From an uncultured Elusimicrobia bacterium (GTDB lineage: Bacteria > Elusimicrobiota > Elusimicrobia > Elusimicrobiales > Elusimicrobiaceae): a DNA stretch of 13,465 bases. Below are positions 2,564 through 9,423 of the stretch, piece after piece. A program made the position numbers and the translations under genes. The stretch covers positions 1 to 13,465 of the forward strand of contig CAMUXX010000010.1 of the NCBI GenBank assembly GCA_947164805.1, written 5' to 3'. The stretch's first letter is position 1. The number at the start of each line of letters is the position of its first letter. A model generated the notes under the pieces. That model did no database searches and had not been told where the DNA came from. It worked only from the letters and a program-made list of their open reading frames with translations.

Positions 2564-3749
2564 AAATGCCGCTTTGTGCGGCGGTTGTGCTTTAATCAAA
2601 GTGCCTTATGAGGAACAACTTAAACAAAAAGTTGCCGCCGTAAGTGCTTTGCTTGAGCCCTATTTTTCAGGTGAAATTAAAGTTACGCCGACCGCATTAA
2701 ATAAATTTTACCGAAATAAAATTGAACTGAGTTTTACACATCAACCCATACATAAAGATCCGCAAAATAAAAAAATTAAACGCGATAAAAGCGTGCCGCT
2801 TGAGTTTGAAGATGTCCTAGGTTTCCGCCAAATGGGGCGTTGGGACAGGGCGGTAAATTTAACCGATTGCCTTATTTTTAATGAGAATTTACCTTGGTTT
2901 GTTTACAAAATTAACTTGTGGGCAAAAGCAAAAAATTTAAGTTTTTACGATCAGCGCAAACATACCGGCATTTTGCGTACTTTAATGATCAGGCAAAGTT
3001 TTAATAAAAAAGGCGGTATGATAATGTTTATTTCCACCGCGCCTTTTGACACAAACGGTCTAACGGAAATTTGCAATCAAATTTACCCCGGCTTTAGTGT
3101 TTTAACTGCTATTAATGACGGGATGAGCGATGCAAGCGGCATTAAAGATATCCGCGTTTTAAGCGGTGTGCCTACAATGCAAGAAGCAATTTTGCTAGAA
3201 GGCGGAAAGGAAATTATTTTTGAAATCTCCCCGCAATCGTTTTTCCAAACAAATACAAAAACCGCAAATTTGATGTACCAAAAAGTACGGAGTAAAGTTG
3301 CCGAAATTAAACCCAAAATCTTATATGATTTTTACGGCGGCGCAGGCAGTTTTTCCTTAACAAATGCGGACCTTGTGGAAAAATCTTTTTGCGTTGAGTG
3401 CGTACCGGAAGCAGTTGAAAACGGTAAAAAAAATGCCGATTTAAACAGTATAAAAAATGTAGAATTTTACTGTCAAACAACTGAAGATTATTTAACCGAA
3501 CATAATATTGAATCAAATAATTCCCTCGTTATTTTGGACCCTGCCCGCGCAGGGGTACACCCAAAAGCATGCGAAAAGTTGGCTAGTTGCGGTGTTAAAA
3601 ATATTTTGTATATATCGTGTAACCCTAAAACTTTAGCGGAAAATTTGGAAGTCTTAACAAAAAATTATACCGTAAAAAGTGCGGAGTGTTTTGACTTTTT
3701 CCCAAACACAAAACATATTGAAACTTTTGTGGAGTTAGTTTTAAAATGA
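2556..3749 (+). CDS. RlmD/RumA-type (uracil-C5) RNA methyltransferase, Fe-S type, no TRAM domain
   Basis: This is a SAM-dependent methyltransferase that makes 5-methyluridine in 23S rRNA or tRNA. Numbering from ATG 2556 (397 residues), a CX5CX2C cluster (Cys2, Cys8, Cys11) plus Cys105 match the four [4Fe-4S] ligands of RumA. SFFQTN precedes the SAM site YDFYGGAGSFSL (about 257-268). DPARAG (about 328-333), the catalytic SCNP Cys355 and the terminal FPNTKHIE motif (base Glu389) complete the fold. The N-terminal TRAM domain of E. coli RlmD is absent. Longer starts exist (ATG 2535, TTG 2520). I chose 2556 because it puts the Cys cluster at the N-terminus with only an 8-bp overlap with ychF, but none has a good Shine-Dalgarno. 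The target base (U1939, U747 or tRNA U54) cannot be decided. The stop overlaps pcrA as ATGA. Confidence 0.9.
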   Translation: MCKNAALCGGCALIKVPYEEQLKQKVAAVSALLEPYFSGEIKVTPTALNKFYRNKIELSFTHQPIHKDPQNKKIKRDKSVPLEFEDVLGFRQMGRWDRAVNLTDCLIFNENLPWFVYKINLWAKAKNLSFYDQRKHTGILRTLMIRQSFNKKGGMIMFISTAPFDTNGLTEICNQIYPGFSVLTAINDGMSDASGIKDIRVLSGVPTMQEAILLEGGKEIIFEISPQSFFQTNTKTANLMYQKVRSKVAEIKPKILYDFYGGAGSFSLTNADLVEKSFCVECVPEAVENGKKNADLNSIKNVEFYCQTTEDYLTEHNIESNNSLVILDPARAGVHPKACEKLASCGVKNILYISCNPKTLAENLEVLTKNYTVKSAECFDFFPNTKHIETFVELVLK

Positions 3750-6097
3750 ACCAAGATTTTTTAAAAACTTTAAACCCTCCCCAACTTGAAGCGGTTAATT
3801 ACACCGGCGGCCCTTGCCTTATTATTGCAGGTGCCGGAACGGGCAAAACAAAAACTTTAACTTGCAAAATCGCAAAACTAATTCAAGACGGTATGCCACC
3901 CTATAAAATTTTGGCGGTAACTTTTACAAATAAAGCCGCAAAAGAAATGCGTGAGCGTTTAAATATGCTTGTTGGTGGCGTTGCAGGGCAAGTGTGGATA
4001 TACACTTTCCACTCCTTTGCTTTGCGTATTCTAAGGCAAAACGCTGAAGCCGCAAAACTTGTGCGCGATTTTGTTATTTACGACGAAACAGAGCAAAAAA
4101 AGGTTATTTCCCTATGCCTTGAAGAAATGGGCGTAAAAGATGCAAAAAAAGAAGTTAATTATTATGTTTCAATAATATCGCGTGCAAAAGATGAAATGCT
4201 TTCCGTTGAAGATTTTTTAGCGCAGGCAGTTGCCTCAAACAATGAAAAAAAGATGCAAATTGCAGAAGTTTACCGCCGCTATCAAAAGAAACTTGACGAA
4301 AGTTTCGCACTTGATTTCGGAGATTTGCTTTTTAAGACGGTGCTACTTTTAAAAAATAATCAAGCCGTGCGCGAATATTACCAGCAATTTTTCCAATATA
4401 TTTTAGTGGATGAGTACCAAGACACAAATAAAACACAATATCTTTTAACTTCGGTACTTGCACAAAAACACCGCAATTTATGCGTCGTCGGCGATCCGGA
4501 CCAATCAATATATTCCTGGCGCGGTGCAAACATAAAAAATATCTTAAATTTTGAACGCGATTTTAAGGATGCAAAAGTCATTACACTTGAGGAAAATTAC
4601 CGCTCCACACAAATTATTTTGGATGCGTCAAATAAACTTATCAAAAAAAATCATAACAGGAAAGAAAAAAGTTTGCACACTTCAAAACAAGGCGGCGAAC
4701 CAATAACAGTAAGGGAATTACCGTCAGAAGGCGAAGAAGCGCGCTTTGTTGCAAACCAAATCCAAATGCAAGTGGAAGATGACGGCGCAAATTTAAATGA
4801 TATAGCGGTTTTCTACCGCACAAATGCACAATCAAGAAATTTTGAAGACACTTTTAGAAGGTATCAAATACCTTACCGCTTAATCGGCGCCGTAAAATTT
4901 TATGACAGAAAGGAAATTAAAGATATTTTGGCTTATGCAAAATTGCTTGTCAATCCAAGTGATAGCGTAAGTTTACTGCGTGTTATAAATGTGCCGCGCA
5001 GAAGTATAGGCAACACAACTATTGCCGCTTTGCTGGCACATGCACAAAAAAATAATATCACTTTGTGGACTGCTTTAAAACAACAAAATTTTATTGACGG
5101 TTTAAAACCTGTGGCGTTACGCGGAATAAAAGAATTTGTTAATTTAATAGACGGCTTAACTTTAGAAAAAGAAATGCTTGCGCCGTCTGAAACATTAACA
5201 AAATTACTTGAACTTTCCGGCTATCAAAAAAGCATTGAAGACGAAATGGAAAAAGACCCTGAGGCAGCACAAAGAATCGGCAACTTAAACGAACTTGTAA
5301 ACGCAGTTAAAGAGTATGAAGAAAGATGTATTAAAGAAAAAGTTGCCCCCACTTTAAGCGGATATTTGCAGGAAATTTCTTTAATCACCGCAGGGGATGA
5401 TAATGAAAATAATGAAAGCGGTGCAGTAACTTTAATGACGGTACACCTTGCAAAAGGCCTTGAATTCCCGACGGTATTTGTAACAGGTTTGGAGGAGGGA
5501 TTGTTCCCCCTCTCCTCAAAAGATGAAGACGAACTTGAAGAAGAACGCCGCCTTTGTTATGTTGCCATGACACGCGCAAAAAAGAATTTATTTATGACAT
5601 ATGCTGCAACGCGCCGCATTTTCGGTAAGACATATGAAAATTTTGCATCAAGATTTTTATATGACAGCGAACTTTTGGAACAAGAAGATTACCAACCGCA
5701 AGAAAGGCAGGAAATAGGTTTTAGAGGGAAACCGCGTGGGCAATATTTTGGCAAATATGACCGCTTTTCCGGAAATACAAGTTACAATAATTCCTCAAAA
5801 TACAAAACAACCGGCATGGGTTTTGATGATGATTTTGAAGGTTATAATAATTATGATAATACACCGAGTTACAGTGCGCCAACCATAACCGATCAACAGG
5901 TCCAAACAAGCGCCCCTGTAAGAAATGTTAGCAGCGGGGTGCGTATCGGCACAGTTATAAAACACGGTGTTTTCGGGCTTGGAAAAGTTGTTTTAATTAC
6001 CGGCAGCGGCGAAGCGGCAAAAATTACCGTCATATTTAACAATGGCACAAAACGCGTTTTTATGCTAAAGTACGCCCCGCTTGAAATTGTTAGGTAA
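3746..6097 (+). CDS. pcrA: ATP-dependent 3'-5' DNA helicase PcrA/UvrD
   Basis: This is an SF1A helicase of 783 residues acting in nucleotide excision repair, replication-fork clearance and transcription-coupled repair. The Q motif LNPPQLEAV (9-17), Walker A AGAGTGKT (28-35, Lys34), motif Ia TFTNKAAKEM, motif Ib TFHSF, motif II DEYQDT (222-227), motif III GDPDQSIYSWRGA, motif IV ENYRST, motif V TVHLAKGLEF (about 564-573) and motif VI YVAMTRAK are all intact. A low-complexity Asn/Tyr/Ser-rich linker (about 670-730) leads to RIGTVIKHGVFGLGKV (from 733). This is the Tudor-like C-terminal domain that in PcrA/UvrD contacts RNA polymerase. ATGA overlap with the upstream methyltransferase implies translational coupling. 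The gene ends 2 bp from the oppositely oriented pilin gene, with no terminator between them. Confidence 0.97.
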   Translation: MNQDFLKTLNPPQLEAVNYTGGPCLIIAGAGTGKTKTLTCKIAKLIQDGMPPYKILAVTFTNKAAKEMRERLNMLVGGVAGQVWIYTFHSFALRILRQNAEAAKLVRDFVIYDETEQKKVISLCLEEMGVKDAKKEVNYYVSIISRAKDEMLSVEDFLAQAVASNNEKKMQIAEVYRRYQKKLDESFALDFGDLLFKTVLLLKNNQAVREYYQQFFQYILVDEYQDTNKTQYLLTSVLAQKHRNLCVVGDPDQSIYSWRGANIKNILNFERDFKDAKVITLEENYRSTQIILDASNKLIKKNHNRKEKSLHTSKQGGEPITVRELPSEGEEARFVANQIQMQVEDDGANLNDIAVFYRTNAQSRNFEDTFRRYQIPYRLIGAVKFYDRKEIKDILAYAKLLVNPSDSVSLLRVINVPRRSIGNTTIAALLAHAQKNNITLWTALKQQNFIDGLKPVALRGIKEFVNLIDGLTLEKEMLAPSETLTKLLELSGYQKSIEDEMEKDPEAAQRIGNLNELVNAVKEYEERCIKEKVAPTLSGYLQEISLITAGDDNENNESGAVTLMTVHLAKGLEFPTVFVTGLEEGLFPLSSKDEDELEEERRLCYVAMTRAKKNLFMTYAATRRIFGKTYENFASRFLYDSELLEQEDYQPQERQEIGFRGKPRGQYFGKYDRFSGNTSYNNSSKYKTTGMGFDDDFEGYNNYDNTPSYSAPTITDQQVQTSAPVRNVSSGVRIGTVIKHGVFGLGKVVLITGSGEAAKITVIFNNGTKRVFMLKYAPLEIVR

Positions 6098-6099
6098 TA

Positions 6100-6603
6100 T
6101 TAAAAACCGTAATTAATTTCGTCCCAATTCCCGAGTTTGCAAAACATTTCGCCTTTGTCTTCTTCATAGTTACACTGTCTGTACCACCCGGAAGGTTCTT
6201 TTGAACCAATCATTTCTGCAAACGCATCTCCATCTTCAGAATTTGTGTACATAAATGCTAACCAAGAACATGATAGAGGACTACACCATACTTCATAACA
6301 AACATATTTTGAACAATAACCTGTAGTGTTGCCAATTGTTTTCTCCGTTAAATTAGATAAGGCGTCTATATCCAATTCTTCAGGATCTATGGGGGCATAC
6401 TGCTCTCCCGATAAAGTATGTGTTAACATATATGTTTCAATACTTTTTTCCAAAGCATTGGTAACGGTATAAACTTCGGCGAGCCTTGCTTTCCAAACAG
6501 TCTTTCCATACTGCGGCAGGGCAATACCAGCAAGTATGCCAATGATAAGTACAACAACCAATAATTCCAGCAAGGTAAAACCCTTGCGATTTTTTGTTTC
6601 CAT
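6100..6603 (-). CDS. Type IV pilin-like protein (prepilin-type N-terminal methylation domain)
   Basis: This 167-residue secreted or membrane pseudopilin or pilin starts METKNRKG, followed by FTLLELLVVVLIIGILAGIALP. Prepilin peptidase would cut after Gly8, giving mature Phe1 and the conserved Glu5 (Glu13 of the precursor). The hydrophobic helix spans about residues 9-30. The C-terminal part has six cysteines (97, 102, 107, 112, 144, 155), which could form three disulfides, and ends in aromatic NYGF. The start is firm: GGAGGT (complement at 6611-6616) sits 7 nt upstream, the strongest ribosome-binding site in the window. No pilus assembly genes are nearby, so it is a stand-alone pilin, as reported for Elusimicrobium-type genomes. 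It is preceded by a long structured leader. Whether it is a major pilin, minor pilin or secretion pseudopilin is unknown. Confidence 0.9.
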   Translation of the reverse strand: METKNRKGFTLLELLVVVLIIGILAGIALPQYGKTVWKARLAEVYTVTNALEKSIETYMLTHTLSGEQYAPIDPEELDIDALSNLTEKTIGNTTGYCSKYVCYEVWCSPLSCSWLAFMYTNSEDGDAFAEMIGSKEPSGWYRQCNYEEDKGEMFCKLGNWDEINYGF

Positions 6604-6627: not shown

Positions 6628-6900
6628 AGGAGTTTAACCCTTTTTGGAAACCTTATAAAAACAAACGGCTGACTATCTTAAGCCATAGAAGTAACCTAAA
6701 ATAGTCAGCCGTGATTTATCAAAAATTGATAAACGCTCGGCACGAAACCGACGGGTAATTAAGCCGTCAATTTTGTGCCTCACGTGCTGTTTTATGGTCT
6801 TCTATGTGCTATTAAAGCTTGCCTAAAAAGGCACCCAAAAACAGATTAAATTTTATTGAGCCGTTATCTATAAAACAACTCACATAAAAATAAAACTCCT
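6628..6900 (-). ncRNA. Candidate structured leader RNA or riboswitch-like element upstream of the pilin gene
   Basis: Read on the minus strand, this 273-nt stretch folds with little left over. Closing helix P1 is AGGAGUUU (6893-6900) with AAACUCCU (6628-6635). P2 pairs 6884-6889 with 6851-6856 and 6874-6881 with 6858-6865. P3 is UGCCU/AGGCA (6829-6833/6820-6824). P4 is GGCAC/GUGCC (6775-6779/6739-6743) with inner GACGG/CCGUC (6764-6768/6750-6754). P5 is UUUAUCA/UGAUAAA (6727-6733/6715-6721). P6 is 12 perfect pairs (6701-6712/6665-6676) extended by six more (6695-6700/6677-6682). The 12-nt P6 loop contains CUUCUAUG (6684-6691), complementary to CAUAGAAG (6799-6806). G-U pairs in P2 and P6 work only on the minus strand, which sets the orientation. 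I recognise no Rfam class. It fills the whole gene-free gap between the pilin and thioesterase genes. Confidence 0.6.
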
Positions 6901-6918: not shown

Positions 6919-6924
6919 ATTATA
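6919..6924 (-). promoter_or_regulatory. Candidate -10 box for the leader RNA and pilin transcript
   Basis: The minus strand has TATAAT here, predicting a start near 6911-6913, about 12 nt before closing helix P1. No good -35 is present at 16-18 bp, so the promoter may be weak or activator-dependent. Its position just downstream of the thioesterase stop and just upstream of the RNA fold supports a separate pilin transcript. Confidence 0.4.
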
Positions 6925-8982: not shown

Positions 8983-9423
8983 TTATTTCAAATAATTTTC
9001 TAAGATTTCCGCGGCCATGGCAACAAGTTCCGCGCAAGGGCGTTTCTTGTAATATTCCCCGGTGCGTTCTTCAGGTTTAAGCGGTAAATTATTTTTATCA
9101 AGCCCTAAAAGGTCGCGGCAAATAATACTGCCGTTTTGCTTTTTAAATTCTCCGCAAATTTCTTGTACCGCCAAATAATGTCTTTGTTTGGCTGCATAAT
9201 CTTTAGCGGTATTATAACCGCGCTTTAAGCCAAGTGCCATGCACATACCGCTGACGGCACCGCAAACTTCGCGTTGGGCGCCAAGACCACCGCCGAAAGA
9301 TGATGCTATTTTAAGGGCAACATCTGCGCTTAAACCTTCATCTTTAGCAAAAGCCAAAAAAACGGCCTGCGCACAATTATAACCCTGCAGAAAATAATTT
9401 TTTGCTATTTCACTTTTTGTCAT
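8983..9423 (-). CDS. C_GCAxxG_C_C family protein, cysteine-rich redox-type
   Basis: This 146-residue cytosolic protein of the family named for its C-GCAxxG-C-C signature (PF09719) has six cysteines: 17 (GYNCAQAV), 54 and 61 (EVCGAVSGMC), 90, 102 (ICRDLLG) and 130 (RPCAELV). It also has a glycine-rich turn SSFGGGLGAQ (41-50). The length and motif order are typical. The conserved cysteines suggest a metal, Fe-S or thiol redox role, but no reaction has been firmly established for the family. No clear Shine-Dalgarno precedes the ATG, and the upstream sequence is very AT-rich, so a leaderless or short-leader mRNA is possible. It is divergent from the Bax inhibitor-like gene and convergent with the nitroreductase. 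Confidence 0.88.
   Translation of the reverse strand: MTKSEIAKNYFLQGYNCAQAVFLAFAKDEGLSADVALKIASSFGGGLGAQREVCGAVSGMCMALGLKRGYNTAKDYAAKQRHYLAVQEICGEFKKQNGSIICRDLLGLDKNNLPLKPEERTGEYYKKRPCAELVAMAAEILENYLK

Follow-up and report, generated by a model that had tools for sequence, protein, structure and literature searches.

A multi-copy family of structured leader RNAs with locus-specific pairing, probably transcription attenuators of pilin and other surface genes in Elusimicrobiota

The window, that is, the whole stretch of 13,465 nucleotides of Elusimicrobiota DNA analysed here, carries on its minus strand a gene for a type IV pilin-like protein of 167 amino acids (6100..6603; PF07963 N_methyl, E 2.2e-9; TIGR02532 above cut-off), and the question is what the long gap in front of this gene (6628-6900) encodes. 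The initial annotation proposed a large structured RNA. The minus-strand fold of the gap reaches -102.4 kcal/mol (z -10.4) and none of 200 shuffled sequences folded as well, which bears the proposal out; the plus strand gave -78.0 kcal/mol (z -7.1) in the same shuffle test. Among the neighbouring genes, a PcrA/UvrD-like helicase gene (3746-6097, plus strand; best model TIGR01073, below its cut-off) is convergent with the pilin gene and ends 2 bases from it, and a C-GCAxxG-C-C family protein is encoded at 8983-9423 on the minus strand (TIGR01909, 80.9 bits against a cut-off of 47.4).

All parts of the leader lie on the minus strand and are given here in the direction of transcription. TATAAT at 6919..6924, read directly from the sequence, is the probable -10 box; a consensus scan gave no complete -35/-10 pair on the minus strand. 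The variable 5′ hairpin P1 (6851..6889) is placed by the MFE fold and by own-genome copies, and by eye it is missing in most copies of G083 (MAG RGIG5124 from roe deer rumen, Elusimicrobiaceae). It is followed by the P2 5′ strand CUGUUUUUGG (6835..6844), with UGUUUUUGG identical in 10 of 10 aligned own-genome copies, by the P2a hairpin (6821..6832; MFE, other copies having a hairpin at the equivalent place) and by the P2b hairpin (6808..6819; MFE and other copies). Next come K1, CAUAGAAG (6799..6806), the 5′ half of the locus-specific pair, and the P2 3′ strand P2′, CCAUAAAACAG (6787..6797), which is predicted from family pairs and a truncated fold of the window copy to be also an antiterminator strand able to pair with the terminator 5′ arm. 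The P3 hairpin (6739..6779) bears in its loop a UAAUUA palindrome (6756..6761), a candidate symmetric kissing loop in view of the palindrome excess in the family, and is followed by the P4 hairpin (6714..6734). The last hairpin, P5 (6655..6712), was called P6 in the initial annotation; it is present, with 20 counted pairs at 6712-6665 and then TTGTTTTTAT, and its function is better read as that of an intrinsic terminator with U-tract, about 50 nt before the pilin start codon. Its loop contains K2, CUUCUAUG (6684..6691). An outer closing helix, AGGAGUUU/AAACUCCU, which had also been drawn, turned out to be peculiar to the window copy and not conserved: as a family feature it was rejected, because a single row among the 184 others, a set that includes 12 chance rows, has AAACTCC within the 60 nt that follow the terminator.

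That the RNA belongs to no named class, as had been claimed, agrees with Rfam release 15 (4227 models), which gave 0 matches in the window at gathering thresholds; seven homologous loci gave only one, a tRNA outside the leader. At a relaxed E-value 12 matches appeared and were rejected, the best being a microRNA family (27.1 bits against a cut-off of 70). With blastn, the window copy had no match in phage and plasmid collections, and 10 matches in its own genome, itself included. A terminator-arm pattern matched 22 times in the own genome (reversed pattern, 0), the window copy, whose U-tract differs, not being among these; it matched 37 of 60 genomes, own included, with distant single matches at control level. 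We then used a covariance model, R1, built from 37 copies with the window copy left out, which matches the core of the window copy (6658..6800) with 100.8 bits (E 1.7e-24). R1 gave 33 matches in the own genome, of which 28 are copies and the other 5, all weak, lie antisense to copies. Under full scoring, with a limit of 150 scored candidates that may cap the number for G083, 132 matches in that genome were among those listed, along with 52 in G014, 48 in G034, 18 in G115, 13 in G005, 12 in G030, 9 in G017, 3 in G001 and 2 in G028, all numbers that may include antisense echoes; G018 and G021 had none.

Under stricter filters, with the best nine candidates at most scored per genome, R1 matched 94 of 340 genomes of the phylum and 8 of 100 genera: the own genus (18 of 18 genomes), genus g6 apart from four exceptions, and, in a second family (f21, which includes the genome RUG658), six genera. 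The leader is patchy in family f1, being absent from G018 and G021, and reappears in f21. The species-genome collection was scanned by the terminator pattern only, a scope that does not prove absence elsewhere; among at least 116 pattern-picked stretches, R1 exceeded 70 bits at 45 loci, 43 of them labelled Elusimicrobiota and 2 'uncultured bacterium', and two weak matches below 29 bits came from other phyla. None of 31 pattern-picked viral contigs had an R1 match at E 0.001 or better. From the 184 pattern rows with K complementarity of at least 7, we removed 12 manually as chance (11 from other phyla and one viral contig), none of which R1 finds; the 172 rows left include L016 counted twice and one likely chance match on L147. 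Several of the own-genome copies L002, L003, L004, L005, L006 and L007 lie a few hundred bases from contig ends, so that the repeats may break these assemblies and copy numbers in MAGs may be low. No publication describing such a family was found in the literature on Elusimicrobi/Endomicrobi RNAs and pili, on pilin-leader antitermination, or on RNA dimerization, attenuation and kissing loops, with subscription journals mostly outside the search. Thus, the leader apparently represents a dispersed, multi-copy family of structured RNAs of animal-gut Elusimicrobiota, undescribed so far. The initial annotation contained neither this family nor the copy-specific paired letters and the variable palindromic P3 loop described below.

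Homologues carry the compensatory changes that a conserved RNA should have: in 37 aligned copies, 15 of 15 pairs in P3 and 9 of 9 in P4 show changes on both sides, so that the two hairpins covary at 24 of 24 pairs. In the same copies 95.2% of cells are paired, compared with 82.2% in shuffles, and none of 500 shuffles reached this value; whole-structure measures also exceed slid controls. In the terminator, the five outer pairs never vary and are therefore uninformative by themselves. Seven core antiterminator pairs (AACAGCC with GGCUGUU) are paired in 98.1% of cells, one being invariant, four varying on one side only and two on both. Invariant columns of the A2 alignment are mostly found in P2′, the edges of P3 and P4, and the terminator, and no conserved unpaired pocket or aptamer was apparent by eye in the alignments; P4 loops are mostly GNRA, UUCG or U-rich. 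The look of a riboswitch, ribozyme or large leader, noted earlier, holds as far as a conserved leader RNA is concerned, and no evidence of a ligand or a ribozyme was found. At L004, terminator and pilin are separated by another long, imperfect hairpin, about 200 nt in size and closed by GTTTTCTTTTTTGCGGC/GCCGCAAAAAAGAAAAC, and L006 has the start of a hairpin of this type before its contig ends. A leader peptide was also considered, as several own-genome copies have a start codon and immediate stop after a Shine-Dalgarno-like GGAG; it was set aside because most G083 copies, by eye, are without that 5′ part.

K1 (6806-6799) and K2 (6691-6684) are exact Watson-Crick complements 107 nt apart. This 8-nt loop-to-strand complementarity, reported in the initial annotation, is real, and the same places pair with other letters in relatives. 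In G083, 42 of the 132 matches were read (43 model matches, one a duplicate from overlapping stretches), all taken by the covariance model and not by K match, and in 42 of 42 K1 and K2 are complementary over at least 7 bases, in other letters. The cis partner was the row maximum in all 42 (mean 10.0 bp in cis against 5.1 in trans), with single trans matches reaching 9 and 10. Complementarity of at least 7 was likewise present in 27 of the 29 f21 copies read, out of 79 matches in ten genomes. Over 23 own-genome rows (22 copies, one counted twice), cis Watson-Crick pairing spans 7-13 and trans pairing is mostly 4-5 and never above 8; at L022 the cis value of 7 is no better than the best trans match. 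In G008, 27 of 30 rows reach 7 or more, the other three have no cis match, and two further copies outside the 30 (L223 and the second copy of L222) have none by eye. The G008 copies without a cis match are thus L214, L223, L222 (second copy), L227 and L243 (second copy); L214 and L223 have the same K2. These mismatched copies perhaps come from assembly of near-identical repeats or chimeras, or are real exceptions. The K1:K2 pair is private to nearly every locus read.

Column identity in G008 illustrates how localized this variation is, with 0.35 for K1 and 0.34 for K2 against 0.77-0.91 in P2b, P2′, P4 and the terminator arms, 0.78 at the base of P3 and a mean of 0.49 in its distal half. G-U pairs make up 3.9% of the K helices (2523 pairs), compared with 11.9% in P3 and 6.6% in P4. 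Overlaps of 6 letters among K pairs are as frequent within genomes (1.21%) as between them (1.20%, not counting cross pairs with 9 or more letters in common). The idea that a genome actively keeps its K pairs dissimilar was therefore rejected, and the numbers give no sign of selection for orthogonality. Elsewhere in the 219 kb of G083 that were examined, about 13% of the genome, K words were not enriched (22 10-mers against 19.9 expected) and no trans partner was found; three copies have an 8-letter complement of K2 within 700 nt downstream.

Two competing folds are predicted for the leader. In transcripts ending right after K2, K1:K2 is nested in an antiterminator in 243 of 246 folds, and in full transcripts the terminator is in the MFE structure in 217 of 246, favoured by a median of 6.8 kcal/mol; the 246 copies folded are only those chosen for K of at least 7, and pseudoknots lie outside what the folding program can represent. 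The picture is less clear in the own genome, where no more than 10 of 23 full-length rows have the terminator in the MFE structure (median 2.7). For the window copy itself, the truncated transcript folds with the antiterminator and the complete one with the terminator. The family thus has the G+C-rich hairpin and U-run upstream of a gene that mark an intrinsic terminator, and, in predicted folds only, a mutually exclusive antiterminator. The initial annotation regarded K1:K2 as a kissing contact. Its pairing is conserved, and the simplest reading is that it forms the distal part of a nested antiterminator helix which excludes the terminator; in these models, K1:K2 is compatible with an early helix that is later overruled or with a pseudoknot persisting beside the terminator.

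The positions of the leaders support control in cis. In G083, 41 of 42 copies precede pilins, and in 41 of 42 a start codon follows 25-47 nt after the model match ends, a distance too short for another promoter. TATA[AC]T occurs within 60 nt before P2 in 29 of the 42 copies, compared with 6.0% of random 60-mers from the same DNA. In 62 of 76 rows the next ORF shares the strand of the leader, in 10 it is on the opposite strand and in 4 it is lacking, while the upstream gene is on the same strand in 47, opposite in 22 and lacking in 7; minus four chance rows from other taxa, these numbers become 60, 8 and 4, and 45, 20 and 7. Of 115 leaders, 15 had no callable downstream ORF; a pilin by strict motif is found behind 53 of the other 100, and behind 8 of 29 f21 copies. 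A Pfam run on 18 chosen non-pilin downstream proteins, 3 of them without a match, identified glycosyltransferases (GT2 twice, GT8 three times, one of these with DUF4422, and group 1 once), polysaccharide pyruvyl transferase, TPR, bacterial PH, DUF805, OMP beta-barrel and staphylococcal nuclease-like proteins, a GmrSD restriction endonuclease (L034) and an EcoRI-type methylase (L254), as well as an Eco57I methylase at L281, which lies 699 nt downstream and is perhaps not the first gene. Pilins are abundant in these genomes: the type IV pilin motif matches at least 150 times in the 1.7 Mb of G083 (of 257 candidates, 150 at most were scored) and 106-113 times in G014, G034, G115 and G028. Leader and pilin numbers are uncoupled: G028 has 106 pilin hits and 2 leaders, and G018 has 76 pilin hits and 0 leaders. 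Conservation and position uphold the earlier suggestion that the leader is placed to control the pilin gene in cis, and position together with anatomy strongly indicates cis attenuation.

The P3 loop is the other variable element. A 6-nt palindrome is present in 20 of 34 distinct P3 loops of 6-11 nt, where 2000 shuffles gave a mean of 2.1 and a maximum of 8; it is present in 14 of 17 loops in G083 (null 1.0, maximum 5) and in 6 of 10 in f21 (null 0.85, maximum 4), and these loops are not independent events. Ten of 16 possible palindromic tetranucleotides occur (AATT, TATA, CATG, TGCA, TCGA, CTAG, AGCT, GATC, GTAC and GGCC), so that the letters change and yet stay palindromic, as is looked for in homo-oligomeric RNAs. 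Since adjacent bases of one strand cannot pair, palindromic tetranucleotides are hard to explain within one strand. Changing palindromic loops in OLE (GGCC, GAUC, AGCU) and in GOLLD were taken as evidence of symmetric kissing loops, and loop-to-strand pairs in ROOL and GOLLD are reported to be intermolecular (PMC12286853). K1:K2 pairing between two molecules is therefore a live option here. The palindromes indicate that the leaders probably dimerise via their P3 loops.

Comparison of loci suggests how K has evolved. Among 26,017 pairs from different genomes, with orthologous loci kept and rows from already counted genomes removed, 18 have a K word of at least 10 letters in common, and 15 simulated sets gave no such pair; one same-genome pair shares K once L069 is included (L069/L235). 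Upstream genes are clearly similar in five of the 19 K-sharing pairs (among L106, L279 and L296; L051/L258; L281/L297). Among the remaining pairs, L037/L174 shares a 39-aa stretch, three share only 31-38 aa, and ten share nothing in the available sequence (25 nt at L055). At the syntenic loci L106, L279 and L296, K is identical over 11 letters in two, with 8 common to the third, and the P2 part is kept; P3-P4 is only 0.56-0.60 identical and the downstream genes are GT8, GT2 and DUF4422-GT8. L122/L254 and L174/L253 keep P2a-P2b-K, differ in P3-P4 and genes, and have no common upstream genes. From these patterns, K seems to persist in a leader lineage for a long time, during which P3-P4 and the gene under control are exchanged, although pairs found through K give no unbiased estimate. 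Judged by the downstream protein alone, retention of K appears mixed: the non-pilin orthologues L034/L039 (99% protein identity), L037/L174 (92%), L281/L297 (88%) and L062/L252 (47%) share K, and L279/L286 (69%), L162/L278 (60%), L016/L286 (53%) and L016/L279 (52%) do not.

Taken together, we favour, with a probability of roughly 0.6, a family of leaders that act in cis as transcription attenuators of pilin genes and of further surface genes, and that probably dimerise and carry a locus-specific key. Read-through control, the folding order in cells, dimerisation and feedback are what we infer from these features. Transcription would start just upstream of P2, and P2, P2a, P2b, P3 and P4 would fold first. 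When the 5′ arm and loop of the terminator emerge, K2 would pair with K1 and P2′ would shift to the terminator arm. The result would be a single long antiterminator helix, which together with P3 and P4 would make up a three-way junction that it closes. As long as this helix holds, polymerase would carry on into the gene, 25-50 nt further downstream; should the helix open, the terminator, being more stable, would halt transcription and an RNA of about 200 nt would be released. Because the P3 loop is self-complementary, two RNA copies would probably pair through it. Our preferred guess is that termination at a locus is coupled to the amount of its own leader RNA, since the palindrome and the private key would then both have a job; being symmetric and common to many loci, the P3 loop alone cannot tell loci apart. 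A tentative extension, which we consider possible and rather doubtful, is that each leader recognises itself, with P3 loops kissing and K1 of one molecule pairing with K2 of the other, so that K would be a private key and a locus would sense its own transcripts only.

The strongest competitor, although improbable by our estimate, is an ordinary signal-sensing attenuator, either a riboswitch or a protein-binding leader, in which K drifts by compensation, the P3 palindromes are of local structural origin and no dimer is formed. It is normal for the expression platforms of riboswitches to drift, the predicted folds here include an antiterminator as well as a terminator, K pairs show no active avoidance, and the distal half of P3 drifts too. 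However, the identity of K1 and K2 in G008 falls far below that of P2b, P2′, P4, the terminator arms and the P3 base, no conserved unpaired pocket is apparent by eye, and ten palindromic tetranucleotides at one loop are hard to account for within a single strand. It is unlikelier still that K1:K2 is a true loop-to-strand tertiary contact, a pseudoknot stabilising the terminated or ligand-bound state. The geometry would permit it, with K1 in the P2 multiloop beside P2′ and K2 in the terminator loop, and comparable loop-strand pairs are described for ROOL and GOLLD, where they proved intermolecular (PMC12286853); against this, in nearly all the truncated folds, from a program blind to pseudoknots, the same letters belong to a nested helix that is longer and runs on into P2′ and the terminator arm.

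We give little credence to a stand-alone barcoded small RNA whose K strand acts in trans, the position before pilins being secondary. The promoter-like box, the leader's own terminator and the K words recurring between genomes would suit such an RNA, yet the short spacing to the start codon, the lack of K enrichment in the 219 kb of G083 and the full pairing of K in cis speak against it. Least probable of all is a DNA-level element, such as inversion repeats, a mobile element or a cassette site, with K as a repeat pair instead of an RNA helix. The nearly pure Watson-Crick K helices and the different genes behind the same leader at L106, L279 and L296 point in that direction; P3 and P4 covarying with G-U pairs, the terminator with its U-tract, the fixed gene orientation, the promoter box and the lack of R1 copies in the 31 pattern-picked viral contigs point away from it.

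T-box, SAM-I and other transcriptional riboswitches, as well as EAR/put-type RNAs, are terminator/antiterminator leaders. The attenuator family favoured here resembles them in that its 5′ leader places an intrinsic terminator directly ahead of the gene and has a strand further upstream that competes with it, and differs in having no Rfam match, no recognised aptamer, K letters private to nearly every copy, a palindromic loop, and 132 listed model matches in one genome, with pilins behind 41 of the 42 read. The HIV-1 DIS kissing loop, a 9-nt loop with a central 6-nt palindrome, serves the dimerisation of the retroviral genome; the loop type is the same, whereas this family has ten tetranucleotide classes at one loop. 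In ColE1, RNA I and RNA II are two separate RNAs of plasmid copy control, in which loop letters set the specificity between alike RNAs, while both halves sit in one RNA in the Elusimicrobiota leader. OLE, ROOL and GOLLD RNAs are larger than this leader core. They share with it co-changing palindromic loops and loop-to-strand pairs (PMC12286853). Unlike them, for they are not attenuators, the present leader has many copies, a core of about 150-250 nt and a terminator at its end, and the oligomer proposed for it is deduced from sequence.

The family may fill about 1-2% of some small genomes, as estimated from 132 matches of roughly 230 nt in 1.7 Mb. Its leaders precede genes of host or phage contact, including pili, glycosyltransferases, an outer-membrane protein, and restriction and modification enzymes. 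Provided that the other G083 copies are like the 42 read, more than 100 different matched RNA keys would share one scaffold within a single genome, which would be useful for studying and engineering orthogonal RNA switches, and the family offers many natural variants for testing cellular RNA dimerisation via palindromic loops. If the self-recognition described above is true, each of 100 or more pilin and surface genes would have its own RNA-based feedback or memory, and this would provide an RNA route to choosing which members of the surface repertoire are made.
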